A stretch of DNA of 64,000 nucleotides from an uncultured Lachnospiraceae bacterium. Its GTDB lineage: Bacteria; Bacillota; Clostridia; Lachnospirales; Lachnospiraceae. The notes beneath the pieces were generated by a model that saw nothing but the letters and a program-made list of their open reading frames with translations, searched no databases and was not told the DNA's origin. The position numbers were made by a program, and so were the translations under genes. How positions within the stretch are numbered: position 1 is the stretch's first letter; each line of letters begins with the position of its first letter. This document shows positions 44,408 through 60,637 of the stretch, piece after piece. The stretch is taken from assembly GCA_951801955.1 (NCBI GenBank), contig CATOOV010000003.1, positions 1-64,000 of the forward strand. The letters run 5' to 3'.

Positions 44408-45556
44408 CTACTTTATCTTAATTTTAACGCTTGCCTTCTTCTTTGTTCCATCTGTTGACATAGCGGTGATTGTTACTGTCTTTTTCTTTCCTGCTTTCTT
44501 TGCCGTCACTGTCCCCTTGGAATTGACTGTTGCATATTTCTTGTTGGAAGTGCTCCATGTTAATGTTTTATTCACGCTCTTTCCGCTTGTCTTCACGGTC
44601 GCCTTCAACGTAACTTTTTTTCCTGCTTTCAGGGTCTTAGGCGCTTGTTTGATTGTCACTTTTGTCACTGCATGTTTCATAATCTTTATGCGGATGCTTG
44701 CTTTCTTTTTCGTCCCGTCCGTTGCAGTGGCGGTGATTGTCACAGTCTTGCCTTTTCCTGCTTTTTTGGTGGTCACCACGCCTTTACTGCTGACGGCTGC
44801 ATACTTCTGATTGCTGCTGCTCCATGTTACTGTTTTATTGCCCGCATTCTTGGGCGACACTGCCGCTGTAAGGCTGGCTTTCTTTCCAGCAGCAATGTTT
44901 TTAGAAGGCGCCGAGACTGCCACTTTGCTTACCCCAACTTTCATAATGGCAATCGTTACCGATGCTTTCTTCTTGGTCCCGTCCGTTGCAGTGGCGGTGA
45001 TTGTCACCTTCTTCCCTTTTCCTGCCTTTGCCGTGGTGACGACTCCTTTGCTGTCCACCTTTGCATATTTCTCGTTGCTGCTGCTCCATTTCAAAGCCTT
45101 ATTGCCCGCATTTTTAGGTGAAACGGTTGCTTTCAGCGTTACCTTTTTGCCTGGGGCAATCTTCTTTGACGGCGCTGATACTGCCACCTTGCTTACCCCA
45201 TATTCCATAATAGTAATGGGCACAGACGCTTTTGCCCCGCTCCCATCTGCTGCAGTGGCTGTAATCGTCACATTCTTTCCTTTCCCTGCCTTGAATGTGG
45301 TGACTACGCCTTTGCCGTCTACTTTTGCATAGGCTTCATTGCTGCTGCTCCATATTACTTCTTGATTGTCTGCATCCTTGGGCGACACAGTGGCTGTAAA
45401 CTTTAACTTTACATCTGGCGCAATTTTCTTTGTAGGGGCTGAAATCGAAATTTTTTCCACTTTCACTTCATCTCCCGGTCCTGGTCCCGGTCCTGGTCCT
45501 GGTCCCGGTCCTGGTTCTGGTCCTGGTCCCGGTTCTGGTCCCGGTCCTGGATCTGG
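44408..45556 (-). repeat. BIG2x4 + Pro-Gly linker cassette, copy 2
   Basis: Encodes the last ~380 residues of the GH51 protein and closely matches 8638-9800 at both DNA and protein level (same strand, about 36 kb apart). The linker is longer in PGPG units than copy 1. Confidence 0.85.
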
Positions 45557-48500
45557 TTCTTCCGTTTCTTCATTGTAAATGACTTTTACAATGGTAAGCG
45601 ACATAGCAGGTATCTCATAAGTCATTTTTCCGCCATTCAACGTCGTATTTTGGGTTACTGGAACAACCTTTGACTGATTTTCCATGGTATTCATATCCAT
45701 AGATTTCCCTGACAGGCAGATCAGCTCTACCTTTGTGCCATCTTTCACTTCTGGATAATGCAACGTAATCTCTTTGGAGTAATCGGCATGGTTTACTAGT
45801 TTGGTGTAAATATTATTTTCGTCCTCCGAGGTCACATAATACAAGTCTGTCTGATGCCCAGGTTTCTTATCATAAGCCGATGTATCACTATTATATTTTT
45901 CCAGGGTGGTATTGAGCAAATGTTTGCCATAGTTATTGGCATACATAGCCTGTACATGATAACTGGGCGTACCATAACTTTCATATGCGTCAAACTTAAT
46001 CAAGTTATAATCCCAGTCCCTGCATCCTTCCCTCTCAAAGAGCGGTGCATAGGAAGCATGGCGTACAATATCTGCGTTGCGCTCAATCCCTGTCATATAC
46101 GCCGCCTCGCTGATTGCCGTATCCAGTACATTTTCTGTAGTGGAAGTAAGATGTCCTGCATATTCACCGATAAATACATTGCTGCCGCCCTCATTCAGCC
46201 GCTTATAATTGTCGTAGGCATAATCGTCTGTAAGCAGTGTATTGCTATTATCCCCTGAATAGTTGATATAATAATGCTCATCCACCAGTGTCTCGCCTGG
46301 CATGTCACGGTTAATCCATTTCCAGGCGTCTGTATTCTGGCTCCCCTGGTAATAAGGACCTGTGGAAGATATCAATGTAATCTTCTTGTCTGGATAATGT
46401 TCTTTTACATAGTCCTCCACATACTTTTTGATCCATGCATAATTCTGGTAATAAATTTCACCCCAATTTTCATTTCCAATGCCTATGTAATTCAGGTCAA
46501 ACGTTTTTTCATGACCATTCTCCACACGTTTGGAAGCCCAATATTTCTGTGTGGCATCGGAACTTGTGGGGCTGCCCCAACAGTAATCAATCAGGTTTGT
46601 CGCATGTTTTGCAAACTCTTCCAATTTCTCACCAGTGACGGGCTCTGCTGTGGGACGGAATTGACAAAATATCCCTGCACTTAAAATTGGAAATGCCTGT
46701 GCCCCCAAATCCTCACAGAGTGTTAAAATCTCATGGTAACCAAATTGATAAGACATCATATACCCATATCCAGGCGTATAATTTACGGGATGCCCTTCCG
46801 TTCCCCAGTAGCTGCCAATTGCCCTTCGTTCTTCCAGTGGTCCCACAGAATCTTCCCAGTTATAGTAACCGTCTGTTCCATAGCTTCCTTCAATGACGCA
46901 CCCGCCTGGGAAACGGATAAAGCTTGGATTTAATGCCTGGAGTTTTTCTACCAAATCCTTCCGCAGTCCTGCCCCATAAGAATAGTTTTTATTCCCATAC
47001 CCATAACCATCGGTAGGAATCAAGGAAACCATATCAATGTATGCTGCATCTGTTGTCCCTGCCTCTTCAAAACTTAAAACCAATGTGCCAAGTTTTGTAA
47101 TGGCGCCTTCCAATGACGCAGAAACCTTCTGCCAGGTCCCATCTTTTTTCAGCGTTAAGGAGGCTTCGTTAGTAAGCGCTGTTCCAGCGTCATCCACTAC
47201 TTTTACTTTTACCGTTCCAGAATAGGAACTATTTGCTTTTAGAAACATGGAGAAATCATACTTTTTCCCCTTTGTGATTGCCATTGCAGATTTGTCCAAT
47301 TTTTCTTTTTCCACAAATCCATGGTTGGATAACTTCTGATTTCCTGTAATCTTTGCATAATTCTTATTATTACCATTTAAACCTGCTGTCCGCTCCACAA
47401 CAAAATTAGCTGCATTGCTGCTTTCCCAGTGGAGTTTCCAAGAATCCTGGTTCCCTTTTACCTCTGGCGCCGTAGCAGAATCCAGGTTTTGGTAATTTTC
47501 AAAGGAATTATTTTTTACCATTTCTGTGGAAAGCCCACCGTCTGCCGAGCTGTTGATATCCTCATAAAATACGCCGAACAATTCTTGGCTGATGTCTACC
47601 CCTTTGTTCTTCTGGTCGATGGTCATTGCATATTCCGTAGTGCTGTCAGACAATACCAACACTTCCATCTGTTTGTCCTTTTTTATATTGGAATTGTTTG
47701 CCATACTGCAGGTTGCTGTCAAAGTAACCTTGGTATCCTTGGATGGAGGGGTAATTTTACCATCATTGGAAATAATTCCTGGATTACTACTCTTCCAGGA
47801 AACCGCTACTTTCCCCTTCATTGCCGTGGCTGGCAGCGTCAAAGCCTTACAAATACGGCTTGCCACCCTTCCCTCCTTGACTTCTGGAATGGTAAGGGCA
47901 TTTCCTGCCGCTGAAACTACAAATGCATCACTGACATTGGAATAAACTTTCCAGCGGTATACCCCGCAGGAATCACCTGTGACTGTCATATACATTCGAA
48001 TAGACTTTGTAGTAATTTCCCCAATGGTTATCTGGTTATAACGGTTTAACTTGGAGAAATTTTTGCTGTTGGATTTTAATTCTGCGTCCTTCCAATTTCC
48101 AGAGGCATCCTTGTACTGGAACCTTACATTGGACGGAACCTTCATTCCCACCGTGTCGCCATACCAATATACTTGGAATGTTTTCGTTGTCAACGCTTCA
48201 TCCCAATCGTACTGGATCCAATGTTCTGTTCCTGCTGTCTGCGGCCAATTTGCCCATCCAAGCCCTGTCCCTATGGAAGATCCCGTAGGTTCAAAATCAG
48301 AATTATTGATGCCGTCCAGATTTTCCCAATCAGAAGTATAGTCAGAACTTGGCACTGCATAAACTGCCGCGTCTGTCAAATTTAAATCCGGGCTAGGCTC
48401 CTCCGGAGTCACAACGCTTGGTTTTGGAAAACTATCCGGCACGCTTCCTAAAAGTTTCCAATCCTTTACAGCAACTGCAACTTTTGTGTTTTGATTTTTT

Positions 48501-49024
48501 GCATGTTCCATGGTAACACGAATCTTAGACGCGGTAACAGGCTCAAATTCGTATATTTTTTCTGTATTTGCTACAAAGGTCCAGGTTCCTTTCTTTACAA
48601 CCTCTTTCCAACTGCCGTCTTTGGCTCCATATTCTATTTTGATATTCGTTGGAACGACCACGCCGCCCCCATCATCATAAAACAAGATACTCGAACCAGT
48701 AATCTCTGCTTCCCGTTCCCCCAGATCATACATCATCCACTGGTCTTTGGTCTGCAAGTCTGGATCTCCATGTGCATTCCAAAAGGAATCCATATTTTCA
48801 TCCGCAAAATTTTCAGCACCCATTCCATAGCCAACATAATTGACAGAAGGCACTGAATAATCCCGAAGTGTTGGATTTTCCACATCTTCCCAGGATCTTC
48901 CCATATTTTCAATGTCTTGCTGCCCCTCGGCAAAAACTGAAATCGACGACGCAGGCAGTGAAGTAAACATCAGCGCTGCTGCCAACAGTAAGCTTACCAT
49001 ACCATGCAGTTTCTTAAATCCCAT
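44408..49024 (-). CDS. Secreted GH51-type alpha-L-arabinofuranosidase with CBMs and BIG2x4
   Basis: A 1538-residue exported enzyme. Order: signal peptide about 1-32; two discoidin-like binding domains (55-198 and 218-355, with FQVYWYGDTVGMKVPSNVRF in the second); a BIG4/atrophied Ig domain (355-458); a CBM4_9-like domain (471-668); a GH51 barrel (671-1141) with RFPGGCVIEG, the acid/base in IGIGNENWGE (about 850) and the nucleophile in FIGEYAGHL (about 953); a beta-sandwich end; a PGPGPGPG linker; and four BIG2 domains (1188-1538). GH51 enzymes release arabinofuranose from arabinan and arabinoxylan. GGAAGGAGAG upstream fixes the start at 49024. It complements the GH43/beta-helix protein at 8638-14637. 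Confidence 0.9.
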   Translation of the reverse strand: MGFKKLHGMVSLLLAAALMFTSLPASSISVFAEGQQDIENMGRSWEDVENPTLRDYSVPSVNYVGYGMGAENFADENMDSFWNAHGDPDLQTKDQWMMYDLGEREAEITGSSILFYDDGGGVVVPTNIKIEYGAKDGSWKEVVKKGTWTFVANTEKIYEFEPVTASKIRVTMEHAKNQNTKVAVAVKDWKLLGSVPDSFPKPSVVTPEEPSPDLNLTDAAVYAVPSSDYTSDWENLDGINNSDFEPTGSSIGTGLGWANWPQTAGTEHWIQYDWDEALTTKTFQVYWYGDTVGMKVPSNVRFQYKDASGNWKDAELKSNSKNFSKLNRYNQITIGEITTKSIRMYMTVTGDSCGVYRWKVYSNVSDAFVVSAAGNALTIPEVKEGRVASRICKALTLPATAMKGKVAVSWKSSNPGIISNDGKITPPSKDTKVTLTATCSMANNSNIKKDKQMEVLVLSDSTTEYAMTIDQKNKGVDISQELFGVFYEDINSSADGGLSTEMVKNNSFENYQNLDSATAPEVKGNQDSWKLHWESSNAANFVVERTAGLNGNNKNYAKITGNQKLSNHGFVEKEKLDKSAMAITKGKKYDFSMFLKANSSYSGTVKVKVVDDAGTALTNEASLTLKKDGTWQKVSASLEGAITKLGTLVLSFEEAGTTDAAYIDMVSLIPTDGYGYGNKNYSYGAGLRKDLVEKLQALNPSFIRFPGGCVIEGSYGTDGYYNWEDSVGPLEERRAIGSYWGTEGHPVNYTPGYGYMMSYQFGYHEILTLCEDLGAQAFPILSAGIFCQFRPTAEPVTGEKLEEFAKHATNLIDYCWGSPTSSDATQKYWASKRVENGHEKTFDLNYIGIGNENWGEIYYQNYAWIKKYVEDYVKEHYPDKKITLISSTGPYYQGSQNTDAWKWINRDMPGETLVDEHYYINYSGDNSNTLLTDDYAYDNYKRLNEGGSNVFIGEYAGHLTSTTENVLDTAISEAAYMTGIERNADIVRHASYAPLFEREGCRDWDYNLIKFDAYESYGTPSYHVQAMYANNYGKHLLNTTLEKYNSDTSAYDKKPGHQTDLYYVTSEDENNIYTKLVNHADYSKEITLHYPEVKDGTKVELICLSGKSMDMNTMENQSKVVPVTQNTTLNGGKMTYEIPAMSLTIVKVIYNEETEEPDPGPGPEPGPGPEPGPGPGPGPGPGPGDEVKVEKISISAPTKKIAPDVKLKFTATVSPKDADNQEVIWSSSNEAYAKVDGKGVVTTFKAGKGKNVTITATAADGSGAKASVPITIMEYGVSKVAVSAPSKKIAPGKKVTLKATVSPKNAGNKALKWSSSNEKYAKVDSKGVVTTAKAGKGKKVTITATATDGTKKKASVTIAIMKVGVSKVAVSAPSKNIAAGKKASLTAAVSPKNAGNKTVTWSSSNQKYAAVSSKGVVTTKKAGKGKTVTITATATDGTKKKASIRIKIMKHAVTKVTIKQAPKTLKAGKKVTLKATVKTSGKSVNKTLTWSTSNKKYATVNSKGTVTAKKAGKKKTVTITAMSTDGTKKKASVKIKIK

Positions 49025-49316
49025 ATTCCTCTCTCCTTCCCGAAAAATCTTCATATACTTTCTCAGGATTATTTTAGCAAACTTTGGGATTATAAAAAAT
49101 GAGACTTTTTTAAGATAATAGAATATTTTTAAGATGATATCTCTCCCATGGTTCAAGAACGCCATCGGAATCATAGAATATTTGTTCTTATATTGGATTT
49201 TGGCATCGGAATCTTATTCGGAAAATTCTATGAACTCCCCGAATCTAAAAAATGAAAATGGAGGCGTTGTTACTGAATGAACTTTGCCTCCCATCAAAAC
49301 AAATTTGCCTTGCCCA

Positions 49317-53262: not shown

Positions 53263-54241
53263 CAATCCTGCCCTCGTCCATATACTTAGCCAGCTCCATT
53301 GCAAAATATGTAAGGTAAATGTCTGTCCCTGCCCGATATGCGCTTGTGGCCATTTCACATAAAACCCCTGCCTCATCCATCCATCCTGCCTGGGATGCGG
53401 CTTTTACCATGGCATATTCCCCGCTGACAGAATACGACGCGATCGGAATAGTTGTTCTGTCCTTCACTTCCCGAATCAAATCCCCATAAGCCATGGCAGG
53501 CTTTACCATAATAATATCTGCCCCTTCCTCTACGTCCAGCATGGCTTCCTTTAACGCTTCCCTGCGGTTGTGATAATCCATCTGATAAGATTTCCTGTCA
53601 CCAAATGCCGGGGCAGAGCCTGCCGCATCCCGAAAAGGCCCATAGAAGGAGGAGGCGAATTTCACTGCATAAGACATAATGGGCACTGTTTCATATCCAT
53701 GGCGGTCTAACATCCTGCGGATTGCAGATACCCGTCCGTCCATCATGTCCGAAGGCGCCACCAAATCAGCGCCTGCCTGCACCTGGGATAATGCTGTCTT
53801 TGCCAAAAGTTCTAACGTTTTGTCATTTTCCACCTCTTGCCCCTGCAACACGCCGCAGTGCCCATGGGAGGTGTATTCGCACATACATACATCCCCCATC
53901 AAATATAGTTCTGGACAGGCTTCTTTTGCCTTTCGAAATGCCTTCTGCACAATTCCATCCTCATCGTAAGCCCCGCTTCCCAATTCGTCTTTCTGTGACG
54001 GAATCCCAAAAAACATTACCGACGACACCCCAGCGTCCTGCAATTTTATCAGTTGTTCTTCCATCCGGTCCACACTGTAACGGTATTGTCCCGGCATAGA
54101 GGGAATTTCTTCTTTGAGATTACTGCCTTCCATAAGAAACATTGGATAAACCAAAGATGATTTATCCATTCTGGTTTCCCTTACCATCTTCCGCAGCACT
54201 GCATGTTTGCGCAGACGCCGCGGCCTATTGACTAATTCCAT
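53258..54241 (-). CDS. hemB: Porphobilinogen synthase
   Basis: A 327-residue enzyme that joins two 5-aminolevulinate molecules into porphobilinogen. Active-site lysine segments are present: SYAVKFASSFYGPFRDAAGS and IIMVKPAMAYGDL. The metal site CMCEYTSHGHCG is cysteine-rich, the zinc type. AGGAGG precedes the ATG, which overlaps cobA-hemD by 10 bases. The final stop lies inside a dispersed repeat, so the last residues may be repeat-encoded. Confidence 0.97.
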   Translation of the reverse strand: MELVNRPRRLRKHAVLRKMVRETRMDKSSLVYPMFLMEGSNLKEEIPSMPGQYRYSVDRMEEQLIKLQDAGVSSVMFFGIPSQKDELGSGAYDEDGIVQKAFRKAKEACPELYLMGDVCMCEYTSHGHCGVLQGQEVENDKTLELLAKTALSQVQAGADLVAPSDMMDGRVSAIRRMLDRHGYETVPIMSYAVKFASSFYGPFRDAAGSAPAFGDRKSYQMDYHNRREALKEAMLDVEEGADIIMVKPAMAYGDLIREVKDRTTIPIASYSVSGEYAMVKAASQAGWMDEAGVLCEMATSAYRAGTDIYLTYFAMELAKYMDEGRIG

Positions 54242-55770
54242 ACGTTCTGCCTCCTAAACCATATATCTGATTGTGCCATTTTTACACATGCATCCACCAG
54301 GCTGTCAATGGTGGCTTTTTCCGACACAACGGTGCGCATTCCCAGTTTCTTTGCCGCCGCCTCTGTCTGGACGCCAATGCAGACGGCATGTACCAGACTG
54401 TAATCCAACCCTTCTGTAGCTTTCGCAAAACCGTGGACTGTAGAGGCGCTGGTAAATACAGCCATGGAAATTTTTCCATTTTCAATCTGAGATTTTTCAT
54501 CCATCCATTCAGAAGGGTTTTCATAGATCGTCTGGTAAATGGGAAGATCTGTGATCTCCACATCCACACGTTTTTGTATTTCTTCGATCAATTGGGGATT
54601 TCCCTTCTCTGCCCTTGGAATCAAGATTTTGTCTTTCTCCCTACACACTTTACCTAACAAAATTCCCAGGTGCGCCCCGTCATAAACCTCTGGCATATGG
54701 TCACAGAGCAGACCGCGCGCCGCAAGTTCCTGCCTGGTTCCAGGTCCGATTGCGCAAAGCTTTGCTGTTCCAAGGGAACGGATATCTTTTCCTGCCTGCC
54801 GCAATTTGTCAAAAAACTGGCATACTCCTGCTGGAGAGGTAAATACCAGGTACTGGTAATCCGAAAGCCTTGCAAATTCCTCCCAAAGCCTTCGGTGGTC
54901 TGGAATGCACTCTGTACGGATCGCCGGAAGTTCTAATACTTCTGCCCCCAGGCTGCGTAATTTTGCACTGATGGTTCCGCTTCTGCCCTTTGGCCTTGTC
55001 ACCAAAATTTTATTTCCAAAGAGGGGCAATCGTTCATACCATTCAAACTCATTTCCCAATGTACAGACCTTCCCCACCAAAACAATTGCCGGGGTCTCGA
55101 CGCCCTGCCGTTTTACTTCTATAGGTAAATGTTCCAAATCCGATAATATTTTTTTCTGCCCAGCCTTCGTCCCCTGCTGCAGGACAGCGGCAGGCATTTT
55201 GGGATCCATTCCGGCAGCAAGCAGCCCTTGGCAAATATCAGACAGCGCAGAAACACCCATAAGGAACACCAGCGTGCCTGACAGACGCACCAGCGCTTCA
55301 AAATCAAGCTGCAGCGGCTCATCTTTTTTCTTGTGTCCTGTAATTACATGTACCGAAGAGGCATATTCTCGATGGGTCACTGGAATCCCACAATACGCCG
55401 GCACTGCAAAGGCAGAGGTTACGCCTGGCACAACCTCAAATGGGATTCCCTCTTTGGCAAGCAGCTCCAGTTCTTCGCCTCCTCTGCCAAACAAAAAGGG
55501 ATCGCCACCCTTTAAGCGAACCACCCTTTTTCCCTGCTGTGCCTCCTTTAAAAGCGTCTGGTTGATCTGTTCCTGCGCCATCGTATGGGTTCCGGCACAT
55601 TTCCCTGCGTCAACCTGTTTTGCATTTTGGGGGATAAGGCTTAGAATACTATCCCCCACCAATCGGTCATATACCACCACTTCTGCCCGTTTTAAAATTT
55701 CTTTTCCCTTTATGGTAAACAGTCCCAAGTCGCCGGGACCTGCACCTACCAGCCATACTTTTCCCTTCAT
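54232..55770 (-). CDS. cobA-hemD: Uroporphyrinogen-III C-methyltransferase / uroporphyrinogen-III synthase fusion
   Basis: A 512-residue two-domain enzyme. Residues 1-245 are the SAM-dependent methylase that turns uroporphyrinogen III into precorrin-2 (VGAGPGDLGLFTIKG, DRLVG, RLKGGDPFLFGRGGEE, TSAFAVPAYCGIPVTHR). The remainder is HemD, which closes and inverts ring D (ILVTRPKGRSGTISAKL, VFTSPAGVCQFFDKL, FTSASTVHGF). The start at 55770 follows GGAAGGG; the longer frame overlaps the previous gene without a site. The fusion is common in Clostridia and couples the branch to siroheme/B12. Confidence 0.95.
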   Translation of the reverse strand: MKGKVWLVGAGPGDLGLFTIKGKEILKRAEVVVYDRLVGDSILSLIPQNAKQVDAGKCAGTHTMAQEQINQTLLKEAQQGKRVVRLKGGDPFLFGRGGEELELLAKEGIPFEVVPGVTSAFAVPAYCGIPVTHREYASSVHVITGHKKKDEPLQLDFEALVRLSGTLVFLMGVSALSDICQGLLAAGMDPKMPAAVLQQGTKAGQKKILSDLEHLPIEVKRQGVETPAIVLVGKVCTLGNEFEWYERLPLFGNKILVTRPKGRSGTISAKLRSLGAEVLELPAIRTECIPDHRRLWEEFARLSDYQYLVFTSPAGVCQFFDKLRQAGKDIRSLGTAKLCAIGPGTRQELAARGLLCDHMPEVYDGAHLGILLGKVCREKDKILIPRAEKGNPQLIEEIQKRVDVEITDLPIYQTIYENPSEWMDEKSQIENGKISMAVFTSASTVHGFAKATEGLDYSLVHAVCIGVQTEAAAKKLGMRTVVSEKATIDSLVDACVKMAQSDIWFRRQNVWN

Positions 55771-55811: not shown

Positions 55812-58529
55812 TTACTCCTCTGGTATCTGCCCTGTCAATTCTTTTGGCAAAGACTCTCCTAAAAAATTCCTCCCTCTCGTTTGTATTTTGGATAATTCGC
55901 CAAATATTTTTTGCCCCAAACAGTTCATTTCTTCCTGAAGCTCCCTTGCAGATACTAGCCTGCATCCCTGCCCCCTTATAATAATCTGCTCTAATCCATC
56001 TGAGGTAGCCACCGTGACCTGATATGTTTTTGCATGTTCATGGGCAAACTTTTCAATATATTGGTCCGCAGTCTCTGCTTCCCCGGTAAACACTACATGA
56101 ATGTTATGGTAATCTTGAATTTCTGTCTTGTGCTGCTGTACCCGGTAGGCATCAAACACCACAATCAGATGGCATCCATAAACCCCTTGGTAATTACACA
56201 TCAGATCCAAAAGCCTTCCCCTGGCGCTGTCAATATTCAGCGCGGCAAGCTCTTTTAATTCCTGCCACGCAAAAATAATATTGTAGCCATCCACTAAGAG
56301 GTACTCTTCTTTTTTCTGGATATTTTTCCAGGATCGGGTTATGGCAGGCACAGTATTTTCCGAAGCGCCCTTCTTTTTGTGAAACCCTTTCCTATGTCTG
56401 CCCTTTTCCTGTTTATTGGCTTCAAATGTCCGGGAAAGGATTGCTTCCACCTCATCTTCCCCAATCCATGTTTCCTTTTGTAAACCGCCCTCCTGTTCCC
56501 TATGCTGCATTTCTACGGCTGAAATCCCCTGCATTGGAACGGTTTCATCCAGAGCGTCCCATCCTTCCAGGATCCTCTGCACCGCTGCTGGAGTCTCCAC
56601 ATGCATATATGACTTCACCTGGTTCCATTTCACTACGAACCCCGCCCCATGGGCACAAAATATGGAATCTGCAGAATGTTCCACATCCCGTTCTGGGTCA
56701 TAAGTTATCTGTTCCATAATTTCTTTTGTGTTATGACATGGGTCATATCCCTTTAACGTATAAAACAGTCTTCCGGTTCCTCTGGTATAATGGATCACCT
56801 GTTTTTGGTAATCTCTCATCTCTGCGGCAGGCGCAGTCCCCTCAAGGATCGCAAATTCTCCCTGGATCTCAGGAGGCTCAAAGGCGCCGTGCATCCGTTC
56901 AATATCTGTCATCGCACGACCAATCATCTGTTCTGGAATTTCCAGACGAAATGTGAAGACTGGTTCTAACAAAACGGATTCTGCCTCCATCAGCCCTTGG
57001 CGCAGCCCTCGGTACACGGCTTGCCGGAAATCGCCGCCCTCGGTATGTTTTAAATGTGCCCGTCCCGTTGTCAAAGTTATTTTCATATCTGTAATGGGGG
57101 AACCTGTCAAAACGCCTCTGTGTTCCCGTTCCTCTAAATGGGACAGTATCAGGCGCTGCCAGTTTTTGTCCAGTACATCCTCGCTGCAGGAGGAGGCAAA
57201 CTGTAGCCCGCTGCCTGGCTCCCCCGGTTCCAGCAACAGATGTACCTCCGCATAATGCCGCAGGGGCTCGTAATGTCCCACGCCTTCCGATGGTCTGGCT
57301 ATTGTTTCTTTATACAAAATATTTCCAGCGCCAAAGGACACTTCCACACCAAAACGTTCTTGAATCATACAAGTCAGTATTTCTAACTGCACCTGCCCCA
57401 TAACCTGCACCCGGATTTCCTGAAGGGATTCATCCCAGACAATATGAAGTTCTGGATCTTCCTCCTGAAGCTGTCCTAAATCATTCAGCATTTTTCCCGC
57501 ATCATATCCAGAAGGCAACAGCATTTGACAAGTTATTACAGGTATCAAAACAGGCATGTCTGAATCTTTTTCCATTCCAAGCCCTTGTCCTGGCAGCGTA
57601 TTCTGTAATCCTGTCACAGCGCAGATGGTTCCCGCTTTTACCTCAGGAACCATTTCAAATTTTTCACCGGAATAAATACGAATTTGATTTATCTTCTCCT
57701 GTCCATCTGTAAGCAATGTTTTCACCTTCAAGGCACCGCCTGTCACTTTTAAGTGTGTCAGGCGGTTTCCCTGGTGATCCCGCGTAATTTTATAAACCTT
57801 CGCCCCAAATTCCTCTGGATAAAAAGGCTCTTTGCAAAACTCTTCCATCCCTTTTAAAAATTCTTTTACTCTGGTAAGTTTCAATGCCGAGCCAAAAAAA
57901 CAGGGAAAAATCTGTCGCTGGCAAATCAATTTCCTGATTTTCTCGTGTGGCACTTCCCCATGTTCCAGGTAATATTCCAGTACCTCTTCCTGGCACATTG
58001 CCACATTCTCATAAAATTCTTCTGTGTCTGTTTCTGAGAAATCCACACAATTCTCATGTAGCTTCTCTCTCAGCTCTGCCAGCAATTTCTCCTGGTTTGT
58101 TTCGGGTCTGTCCATTTTATTTACAAACAAAAACGTCGGGATTTTATACTTTTTCAAAAGCTGCCACAGAGTCCTGGTATGACTCTGAACTCCATCTGAG
58201 CCGCTGATTACCAATATTCCATAATCCAACACCTGCAAAGTCCGTTCCATTTCCGCAGAAAAATCCACATGTCCTGGGGTGTCCAAAAGTGTCAGGCTGG
58301 TATGGGAAAGTTTTATGACTGCCTGTTTCGAAAAAATGGTAATTCCCCTAGCACGCTCCAGCCCATAGGTATCTAAAAAAGCGTCCCGGCTGTCCACCCT
58401 TCCCAGTTTTCGGATATTTCCGCTTACATATAACAACGCCTCTGAAAGAGTTGTCTTCCCTGCGTCCACATGGGCAAGCAGAGCCGCATTAATATTTTGT
58501 ATTTGCTTATTTTCAGATTTCTCTTCCAT
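55812..58529 (-). CDS. EF-G/TetM-like translational GTPase fused to YacP/Rae1-type NYN nuclease
   Basis: A 905-residue fusion. Residues 1-~660 are a ribosomal-protection-type (TetM/TetO-like) GTPase: P-loop AHVDAGKTTLSEALL, ERARGITIFSKQ (switch I), LLDTPGHVDF, FVNKMDR, then domains II-V typical of EF-G relatives (VQVMGQVQLEIL, PEQMIGRAMTDIERMHG). A Lys-rich linker (about 690-735) leads to a NYN/PIN-like domain (740-900): LLVDGYNIIFAW, VVFDAYRVQQ, ETADQYIEKFA and TSDGLEQ, with conserved Asp residues in place. In B. subtilis the stand-alone homologue Rae1 (YacP) enters the ribosomal A site and cuts mRNA. Combining both in one chain suggests ribosome-targeted RNA cleavage; this is inference. It sits between hemC and cobA-hemD. 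Confidence 0.9.
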   Translation of the reverse strand: MEEKSENKQIQNINAALLAHVDAGKTTLSEALLYVSGNIRKLGRVDSRDAFLDTYGLERARGITIFSKQAVIKLSHTSLTLLDTPGHVDFSAEMERTLQVLDYGILVISGSDGVQSHTRTLWQLLKKYKIPTFLFVNKMDRPETNQEKLLAELREKLHENCVDFSETDTEEFYENVAMCQEEVLEYYLEHGEVPHEKIRKLICQRQIFPCFFGSALKLTRVKEFLKGMEEFCKEPFYPEEFGAKVYKITRDHQGNRLTHLKVTGGALKVKTLLTDGQEKINQIRIYSGEKFEMVPEVKAGTICAVTGLQNTLPGQGLGMEKDSDMPVLIPVITCQMLLPSGYDAGKMLNDLGQLQEEDPELHIVWDESLQEIRVQVMGQVQLEILTCMIQERFGVEVSFGAGNILYKETIARPSEGVGHYEPLRHYAEVHLLLEPGEPGSGLQFASSCSEDVLDKNWQRLILSHLEEREHRGVLTGSPITDMKITLTTGRAHLKHTEGGDFRQAVYRGLRQGLMEAESVLLEPVFTFRLEIPEQMIGRAMTDIERMHGAFEPPEIQGEFAILEGTAPAAEMRDYQKQVIHYTRGTGRLFYTLKGYDPCHNTKEIMEQITYDPERDVEHSADSIFCAHGAGFVVKWNQVKSYMHVETPAAVQRILEGWDALDETVPMQGISAVEMQHREQEGGLQKETWIGEDEVEAILSRTFEANKQEKGRHRKGFHKKKGASENTVPAITRSWKNIQKKEEYLLVDGYNIIFAWQELKELAALNIDSARGRLLDLMCNYQGVYGCHLIVVFDAYRVQQHKTEIQDYHNIHVVFTGEAETADQYIEKFAHEHAKTYQVTVATSDGLEQIIIRGQGCRLVSARELQEEMNCLGQKIFGELSKIQTRGRNFLGESLPKELTGQIPEE

Positions 58530-58610: not shown

Positions 58611-59501
58611 TCATTCTTTGGATTCTATTATCATCTTCCCTGCGAGTTTCTCTCCCAACGCCTTGGCATGTTCTTTGGGACCAGTTATGGTTTCTAACTG
58701 GTATTCGTTACATCCTTCCTGTGCATAAAGCCCGGTAAGTTTCAAGATATTCCCTGGGTCGATTATGGCATAGGCAGCTATGGGAGAACTGCACCCTCCA
58801 TCCAGTTTCCGCACAAAACTGCGTTCGGCAAGCGCGCACCACATACTGTCTTTGTCATAAAAACCTTCCAGATAGGAATAATCTTCCCCCCGCCTTCCCT
58901 GGACCGCAAGCATTCCCTGTCCCGCCGCCGGCAATAGTTCCTCTGTGGAAAAATAACGGCTGATTCTGTGTGTAAGCCCCAGGCGCTTGAGCCCTGCCGA
59001 CGCCAAAATTAGACCGCTGTATTCGCCCTGGTCTAATTTCTTAAGCCTGGTCAGCACATTTCCCCGAATACTCTTTACCTCCATTTCTGGAAATAAATTT
59101 CTAAGCTGAATGGTACGCCGCGCGCTTGAGCATCCCAATGGCAGCTTGGGATTTAAGCTATCTGCACCTTCTGGCAGGACCAAGACATCCCTGGCATCCT
59201 CCCGCCTGGAAAATCCCAGCAGAGGAAGGTTTTTGGAAACCTCCATGGGCACGTCTTTCAGGCTGTGCACAGACACATCACTGCGTCTATCTAAAAGGGC
59301 ACGATCTAATTCTTTGACAAACAAGCCTTTCCCACCTATCTTATCTAAAGTCCGATCTAAAATCTGGTCGCCTGTAGTTTTCATTCCAACCAATTCTGGT
59401 TCCATCCCATTACAGGTTTCACGGATATATTCCGCCAAAATCTCTGCCTGAACCATGGCAAGACGGCTTTCCCTGGTTCCGATTCTTATTTTCTGCAGCA
59501 T
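58611..59501 (-). CDS. hemC: Hydroxymethylbilane synthase
   Basis: A 296-residue enzyme that links four porphobilinogens into hydroxymethylbilane. It has GTRESRLAMVQAE at the start, HSLKDVPME, GCSSARRTIQL and the dipyrromethane-cofactor Cys in LDGGCSSPIAAYA. GAGGAAC precedes the ATG. It follows sirC by about 135 bases and precedes the GTPase-nuclease fusion on the same strand. Confidence 0.97.
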   Translation of the reverse strand: MLQKIRIGTRESRLAMVQAEILAEYIRETCNGMEPELVGMKTTGDQILDRTLDKIGGKGLFVKELDRALLDRRSDVSVHSLKDVPMEVSKNLPLLGFSRREDARDVLVLPEGADSLNPKLPLGCSSARRTIQLRNLFPEMEVKSIRGNVLTRLKKLDQGEYSGLILASAGLKRLGLTHRISRYFSTEELLPAAGQGMLAVQGRRGEDYSYLEGFYDKDSMWCALAERSFVRKLDGGCSSPIAAYAIIDPGNILKLTGLYAQEGCNEYQLETITGPKEHAKALGEKLAGKMIIESKE

Positions 59502-59636: not shown

Positions 59637-60125
59637 CTATCCATCTTCCAGATGATCGTTTCCATTCTCCCATTCTAAAAGCTGTCTGCGTATTTTTTCT
59701 GTCACCTTTGCCGCTTTCTGGTGATTTTTGCCTCCTGCTGTCACCCCTATGGTAATCTCCCCCTGGCTGGCAATTCCCGGAAAAAAGAAATCACATTGTT
59801 CCTTATTTGAAGCTACATTGACCCAAATATGTTTTTGCCGGCATTCTTCAAAAATCATGGTATTGACAACGGTATCATCTGTTACGGCAAGGACAATCTC
59901 TGCTTTCCCTAACTCTCCAGGACAGTATGTTCGATATTCCAACTGCAGGTTTCCTTGCTGCACGGCAAGCTTTTGCAGATCTTCATTCATCTCTGGGGCA
60001 GCGGCTGAAACCTTTGCACCAAATTCCAACAAGGCTTTGATACGCCTTAGAGCAATATTCCCGCCTCCAAATACTTGAACCTGCCTGTCCTTCATATTTA
60101 AAAATATTGGAAAATAGGAGTTCAT
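59637..60125 (-). CDS. Precorrin-2 dehydrogenase (SirC/Met8-type)
   Basis: A 162-residue NAD-dependent enzyme that oxidises precorrin-2 to sirohydrochlorin. It has an N-terminal Rossmann fold (FGGGNIALRRIKALLEFGAK; LAVTDDTVVNT; NVASNKEQCDFFFPG) and the SQGEITIGVTAGGKN region. Its length equals the short SirC form, so a chelatase domain is probably absent. The ATG overlaps the nudix gene by 4 bases (ATGA). It prepares precursors for siroheme and B12. Confidence 0.92.
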   Translation of the reverse strand: MNSYFPIFLNMKDRQVQVFGGGNIALRRIKALLEFGAKVSAAAPEMNEDLQKLAVQQGNLQLEYRTYCPGELGKAEIVLAVTDDTVVNTMIFEECRQKHIWVNVASNKEQCDFFFPGIASQGEITIGVTAGGKNHQKAAKVTEKIRRQLLEWENGNDHLEDG

Positions 60126-60637
60126 GCTTCATTCTCCACAAAAAATGCCTGTTTGATACTGTCATAATGCAGAAAAATTCCCTGTTTTGCCAGCGCTTCA
60201 ATCTGGGCTCTCTCTGCCAGCATAAATCCTGTTGCCTCTTCTTCCTGCAAATGCACATCAGATTCCTGAAAATCCAAAACAAACCGATAAACATCCACAA
60301 AATAATTGTCCCCTTCGCCCGGATTTTCCCGGTGATAGGTAAACAGGTAACTGTCCTGGCAGCCGGACACATCCAATCCGGTTTCCTCATAAACTTCCCG
60401 TATCACTGCGTCCAAAGATTCCTCTCCTGCCATCACGGCGCCCCCGGAAACTTCCCACCATCCAGGCGCCCATGCTTTTGTCATCACTCGTTTGGTGATC
60501 AAAAATTTCCCATCTGGGCGCATAATGACCCCCAGGACCGTGAGGTGGTATTCTCCCTCCTTTAAATGCCAATCATTTCGTTTCATGGTACGTCCTGTCC
60601 GCTGTTTCCTGTTGTCATAAATATCCCACATTTCCAT
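60122..60637 (-). CDS. NUDIX hydrolase
   Basis: A 171-residue NUDIX protein. The full Nudix box is present: GGAVMAGEESLDAVIREVYE followed by ETGLD, matching Gx5Ex7REUxEExGU. The N-terminus (EMWDIYDNRKQRTGR) resembles the isopentenyl-diphosphate isomerase-like/YfcD branch. The substrate is unknown. It overlaps sirC (ATGA), so it is translated with it; it has no known role in tetrapyrrole synthesis. AAAGGAAT precedes the ATG. Confidence 0.92.
   Translation of the reverse strand: MEMWDIYDNRKQRTGRTMKRNDWHLKEGEYHLTVLGVIMRPDGKFLITKRVMTKAWAPGWWEVSGGAVMAGEESLDAVIREVYEETGLDVSGCQDSYLFTYHRENPGEGDNYFVDVYRFVLDFQESDVHLQEEEATGFMLAERAQIEALAKQGIFLHYDSIKQAFFVENEA

Follow-up and report, generated by a model that had tools for sequence, protein, structure and literature searches.

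Why does a translational GTPase carry a nuclease, and what is it doing in a heme/B12 cluster? Both questions are raised by one gene of the window, the 64,000-nucleotide stretch of DNA from an uncultured Lachnospiraceae bacterium that was analysed in this study. The gene (55812-58529, minus strand) is a single frame of 905 amino acids, and a domain profile scan identifies its product as a fusion. An EF-G/Tet-type GTPase (residues 12-601) is followed by an extension and a linker and then by a Rae1/YacP-type NYN nuclease domain (residues 744-898; 55836-56300, minus strand). Within the GTP-binding domain (residues 12-231; 57837-58496, minus strand) the motifs AHVDAGKT (19-26), DTPGH (83-87) and NKMD (137-140) are intact. 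This confirms an earlier sequence-only reading, which had placed an EF-G/TetM-like GTPase and an NYN nuclease on one chain. The full-length predicted model of the protein has a pTM of 0.59 and does not fix the position of the NYN part. Compared with known structures by Foldseek, it gave 50 listed matches, all of EF-G/EF2 types; since the GTPase part fills this list, the NYN part was folded separately. We propose, at a probability of roughly one half and by analogy with the relatives of both domains, that the protein is a GTPase-delivered Rae1, likely cutting mRNA on ribosomes where the GTPase has docked. The earlier suggestion of a ribosome-bound RNase or of a rescue factor would be compatible with this.

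The nuclease assignment is clear. The window protein scores 166.7 bits against the NYN_YacP profile (cut-off 24.6), and its NYN domain resembles Rae1 by sequence and, modelled alone, by fold. Alignment with Rae1 was the point on which the nuclease claim could have failed; four Asp residues do align (D747, D793, D822 and D844), at positions that we take to be those of the catalytic Asp of Rae1/YacP. All four are retained in 57/57 fused loci, with changed neighbours in two of them (SAD/SSD in L100, GTAD in L148). Rae1 is described, in the portions available of PMC12320835 and PMC6613710, as an mRNA endonuclease that acts in the ribosomal A site. Standalone NYN proteins end in a tail, LE.[I/M/W]R, which the window protein does not have. 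Counting this motif "or near it", a wider pattern with which chance matches are possible, the tail is present in 20/20 standalone NYN proteins, in no more than 17/57 fused loci and in 14/239 fused proteins; a narrower pattern gave 19/20, 5/57 and 9/239, respectively. A PDB entry titled W164L fits our inference that W164-R166 of Bacillus subtilis Rae1 is this motif. The R166P allele of B. subtilis Rae1 is a suppressor that its authors, in the available text of PMC6613710, read as loss of function. Together with the tail being mostly missing from the fusions, this suggests that a nuclease delivered by its GTPase may no longer need a docking tail. The NYN tree does not unite the fused domains in a single clade, as six standalone NYNs from the same family are nested inside (support 85, unstarred); release from the fusion or re-fusion is possible, or the tree fails to resolve these branches. 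Carriage on mobile elements was considered and set aside; the NYN part matched 23 of 72,556 plasmid records and 12 of 50,697 phage records. Among the 10 plasmid matches shown, two are fused-type by annotation and lie on large replicons (Monoglobus, Agathobacter).

The GTPase part might protect ribosomes against tetracycline or a related antibiotic, the NYN part being an accessory. Names and best matches point this way: tet_protect (NF012153) is the best NCBIfam model for the window protein, TetO is its top PDB sequence match, and a source assigns 6 of 240 listed fused relatives to the TetM, TetW, TetO or TetS family, most relatives being unnamed. However, the score of 404.6 bits is about half the curated tet_protect cut-off of 775; two further fused and five unfused members reach 384.6-450 bits. 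The EF-G model TIGR00484 also stays below its cut-off (300.9 against 659.4 bits). An alignment set domain IV and the extension of the window protein against four true Tet proteins and the EF-G of the same genome. The domain IV tip (residues 490-502; 57024-57062, minus strand) reads RAHLKHTEGGDFR, as compared to LYYSPVSTPADFR in Tet and SYHEVDSSEMAFH in EF-G, and keeps the EF-G tip His as H492; set tip against tip, GRAHLKHTEGGDF faces GLYYSPVSTPADF (or GVYY) in Tet and GSYHEVDSSEMAF in EF-G. Loop I of domain IV is unlike both. The Tet loop III YSPVSTPADF is replaced by HLKHTEGGDF, and its STPADF part was found in 0/57 fused loci. Loop III matters for Tet(M) according to the available part of PMC4750697, where S508A and S508A/P509A/V510A mutants are nevertheless active, so that the loop letters alone do not exclude a Tet function. 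The alignment shows in addition that the Tet C-terminal extension is absent from the window protein, its place being taken by a Cys-containing extension of a different kind.

The tip is a property of a wider group. H492, K494, T496 and G498-R502 are invariant among 101 fused sequences, and the pattern HTxGGDFR is found in 238/239 fused proteins longer than 840 amino acids and in 118/118 unfused proteins of 620-700 amino acids (360 listed proteins altogether, 3 of them outside both length classes). The GTPase motifs are equally well kept, AHVD[A/S]GKT (6 with S) and DTPGH each occurring in 57/57 fused loci. In a GTPase tree of 92 rows, 51 fused rows form one clade (SH-aLRT 99) with 33 unfused rows as its sister clade (94), and 5 true Tet rows stand apart from the fused clade with a support of 100; the tree is a quick one with a long-branch warning, and its two EF-G outgroup rows are cut at locus edges. 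The fused GTPases are thus a clade distinct from the Tet proteins compared. A curated Tet gene is present in 13 of 120 genomes of the family, and 13/13 of these also have the fused frame (in G031 the match runs over stops). The suggestion that the gene serves a cellular role and not resistance is supported by this co-occurrence, by the missing Tet loop III and by the family-wide frequency given below, and we consider tetracycline protection improbable. Two aberrant proteins were noticed besides. G068 (L192) encodes another unfused, Tet-like GTPase of 641 amino acids (453.1 bits to tet_protect, tip EHHLEHTHPLDF), which falls outside both clades on a long branch. In P0109, a relative of 1040 amino acids, about 130 residues from domain IV/V occur twice as judged by eye, through duplication or assembly error.

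The C-terminal extension (residues 598-645; 56595-56738, minus strand) is common to the window protein and the unfused sister proteins and is not that of Tet in the alignment. Among the 101 fused rows C598 and C625 never vary and H643 is kept in 98%, and the Cys residues are also present in unfused proteins. From this conservation, C598, C625 and H643 (about 56600-56738, minus strand) are a possible metal site. The linker (residues 646-742; 56304-56594, minus strand) has mostly low pLDDT. The GAG..V.W motif in the extension and VDGYN are 87-152 residues apart (median 108; 100 of the 101 rows measured). A conserved motif lies within the linker (residues 691-705; 56415-56459, minus strand) and is predicted, with low confidence, to be a helix. 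Its residues E693, I697 and T701 are retained in 97-100% of the 101 rows, and a loose pattern of the motif matches 160/239 fused proteins.

How common is the fusion, and do its two parts depend on each other? The near relatives of the window protein are named Lachnospiraceae. Among 120 genomes of the family, own genome included, NYN_YacP is found in 108, comprising 96 with frames of at least 735 amino acids and 12 with shorter frames only; the remaining 12 genomes are without it. About 9 of the 12 genomes with short frames have a standalone NYN. G042 and G095 have the fused-type GTPase part separate, in an overlapping frame or at the edge of another contig, and G098 has an NYN frame of 516 amino acids. 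In G042 (L172:699-3384) GTPase and NYN lie in two frames that overlap by 23 bp, either a broken fusion or a sequencing slip. A standalone NYN without the GTPase occurs in G007, G016 and G020, the latter two genomes being 87% and 67% complete. At an E value of 1e-85, the GTPase was found in 0/12 family genomes without NYN. The unfused GTPase is present in 6 of the 10 family genomes that have a standalone NYN (one copy interrupted), as compared to 0/12 genomes without NYN (Fisher 0.003); within the family the two partners thus tend to occur together even when unfused.

The class was sampled with 293 Clostridia genomes, own genome included, 192 of which have NYN_YacP and 123 the GTPase at an E value of 1e-100. 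About a third of the other Clostridia (102/292) have a fused-type GTPase, defined as a frame of at least 780 amino acids or at least 52% identity (4/102 have short frames). NYN is present in 102/102 of these, as a single match in 98 and with a second match in G239, G293, G326 and G401. Close relatives without the NYN part would, by the sequence-only reading's own terms, have counted against it. Such a loss was looked for and not seen: besides the 102/102, each of the 18 congeners gave a match to the fused query, along most of the query in 17 of them and, in G420 at a contig edge, only along residues 1-548. The unfused type occurs in 19/292 Clostridia, 13 with and 6 without NYN, and one genome, G249, has another GTPase type. 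No listed unfused copy was found beside the fused-type GTPase in 102 genomes with four candidates scored per genome; when all candidates were scored, one match at 1e-150 was obtained in 21/21 fused genomes. NYN without the fused GTPase is found in 89/292 Clostridia. The function of NYN_YacP must be dispensable, since 101/292 Clostridia are without any NYN_YacP. Class-wide, the unfused GTPase is present in 13/89 genomes with a free NYN and in 6/101 without NYN, a weak link (p about 0.05, computed with 102 and with species that are not independent).

These counts bear on a simpler explanation, namely that fusion couples only the expression of two independent activities and that the GTPase keeps a ribosome role of its own as in its unfused sisters. 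It is consistent with the unfused GTPase occurring without any NYN in 6/19 genomes of the unfused type, and with NYN occurring without either GTPase type in 76 of the 89 genomes that have it but no fused GTPase. It does not sit easily with a single clade of 51 fused rows, with the retention of NYN in 102/102 genomes, or with a conserved motif in the linker between both domains. We regard independent activities as rather unlikely.

The usual place of free yacP was examined next. In the classical slot the genes are ordered cysS-mrnC-rlmB-yacP-sigH, and of 20 standalone loci read, 18 have yacP in this slot (15 next to rlmB, 3 next to sigH) and 2 have it elsewhere. Twenty fused genomes were searched by means of rlmB. 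In 19 of them there is no yacP in the slot; 14 of these, own genome included, have rlmB adjoining sigH, and in the other 5 sigH was not seen adjoining rlmB. The exception, G401, has both forms: its slot, where the second NYN match of this genome was placed, is filled by a free yacP, and the fusion lies at another locus. G239 and G293, which also carry a second NYN match, are among the 19 genomes without a slot yacP. In the own genome, 89% complete, the one NYN_YacP is that of the fusion, and the yacP slot is empty, the matches to rlmB and sigH being about 136 bp apart (L213). We read this gene order as the fusion having taken over the role of free Rae1. The replacement is not claimed here as unpublished, as Condon 2018 on the distribution of Rae1 may describe it.

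Another conceivable function is that of a factor for ribosome biogenesis or RNA maturation, in which the GTPase would recognise an assembling or idle subunit and the NYN part would trim rRNA or tRNA. Free yacP adjoins mrnC and rlmB, and both have rRNA roles. An ability to act as rRNA RNases has moreover been proposed for these proteins in the available part of Atkinson 2015 (PMC4342817). A required maturation step is hard to fit with so many Clostridia without NYN_YacP (101/292), however, and Rae1, the closest characterised nuclease, attacks mRNA in the A site as far as the available text of PMC12320835 goes. A maturation factor is in our opinion an unlikely identity for the fusion.

A tie to heme, B12 or glutamyl-tRNA supply, the last offered as speculation by the sequence-only reading, was also considered, as the fusion lies between hemC upstream (58611-59501) and cobA-hemD downstream (54232-55770), all on the minus strand. 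The co-directional arrangement and its recurrence in the genus would favour a role in regulating heme/B12 synthesis or the supply of glutamyl-tRNA: of 18 congener loci 16 were read, of which 4 have hemC and cobA-hemD on both sides and 6 more have part of the cluster. Thus, 10 have at least one of 11 probe genes from the tetrapyrrole cluster of the window and its edge, and 6, some on short contigs, have none. Outside the genus none of the 11 was found at any of 40 fused loci within the 12-20 kb read per locus, and within the genus the inserts vary. For these two reasons the heme/tRNA idea was dropped, rejected by neighbourhood comparison, and such a regulatory role is very improbable. The heme/B12 neighbourhood is a genus-level feature. 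No neighbour within 5 kb is conserved beyond the genus, in a count that placed L162, a same-order genome, within the genus; the commonest neighbour, an ABC transporter as judged by eye, occurs in 9/40 loci (L062-L101), a raw count. The gap between hemC and the fusion in congeners (L146-L156) is a variable spot in the heme/B12 cluster, with regulator-like, secreted-protein-like and ATPase-like inserts by eye. Elsewhere in the window, a gene between hemA and a sirC-type gene of the heme operon (60122-60637, minus strand), which we presume to be NUDIX-type, has 83-85% identity in three congeners (L146, L147, L148), and a 1588-amino-acid secreted protein (44408-49174, minus strand) resembles by eye an arabinofuranosidase with Ig-like repeats.

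A GTPase-delivered Rae1 could work as follows. Judging from its likeness to EF-G and TetM, the GTPase would bind a ribosome whose A site is open or stalled, and domain IV would probe the decoding centre there. GTP hydrolysis would free domain IV, and the NYN nuclease on its flexible linker would then enter the A site and cut the mRNA, as Rae1 does. The fusion would thereby do the job of free Rae1 and bring its own delivery. The order of steps (dock, hydrolyse, release, cut) is a guess from sterics, since domain IV and Rae1 would each need the space that the other fills. Only tentatively do we extend this to a third class of factors, EF-G-like but distinct from both EF-G and Tet, that would serve to deliver Rae1, the A-site nuclease; across much of the Clostridia the free RNase would have been lost and replaced by a GTP-controlled, self-delivering rescue machine, whose dedicated domain IV tip would probe the decoding centre before the message is cut. 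If delivery by the GTPase is true, bacteria would link a translational GTPase with mRNA cleavage within a single protein. It would offer a way to study how Rae1 is directed to its ribosomes and what function the unfused 'Tet-like' GTPases of Clostridium and Paenibacillus have. Moreover, proteins that some sources name tetracycline resistance probably are not, which matters for resistome counts.

The fusion architecture was already published in 2015: the available part of Atkinson 2015 (PMC4342817) describes ten clostridial "Tet" proteins with an added YacP-like NYN RNase domain and suggests an RNase role. It was the only report of a GTPase and NYN combination found among the open-access papers searched, broader searches by titles and abstract starts giving none further. 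The window gene fits the description (a Tet/EF-G-type GTPase, then a YacP-like NYN, in a clostridial genome), shares architecture and host group with the Tet-NYN proteins and is almost surely one of them. As far as its available part goes, Atkinson 2015 filed the fusions under Tet in ten species, whereas here they form a clade of their own with an unfused sister, occur in 96/120 genomes of the family and 102/292 other Clostridia, and go with an empty yacP slot. From Tet(M) and Tet(O) the fusion differs in domain IV loops I and III, C-terminal extension, model score, tree position and distribution. In contrast to B. subtilis Rae1/YacP, its NYN domain is attached to a GTPase, is encoded outside the rlmB-sigH slot and lacks the LE.[I/M/W]R tail. 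The unfused GTPases of about 650 amino acids, some named 'translation factor GTPase family protein' (Clostridium, Paenibacillus, Brevibacillus, Bacillus), have no linker and no NYN domain, but they share 42-48% identity with the fusion and have the same HTxGGDFR tip and C-terminal extension.
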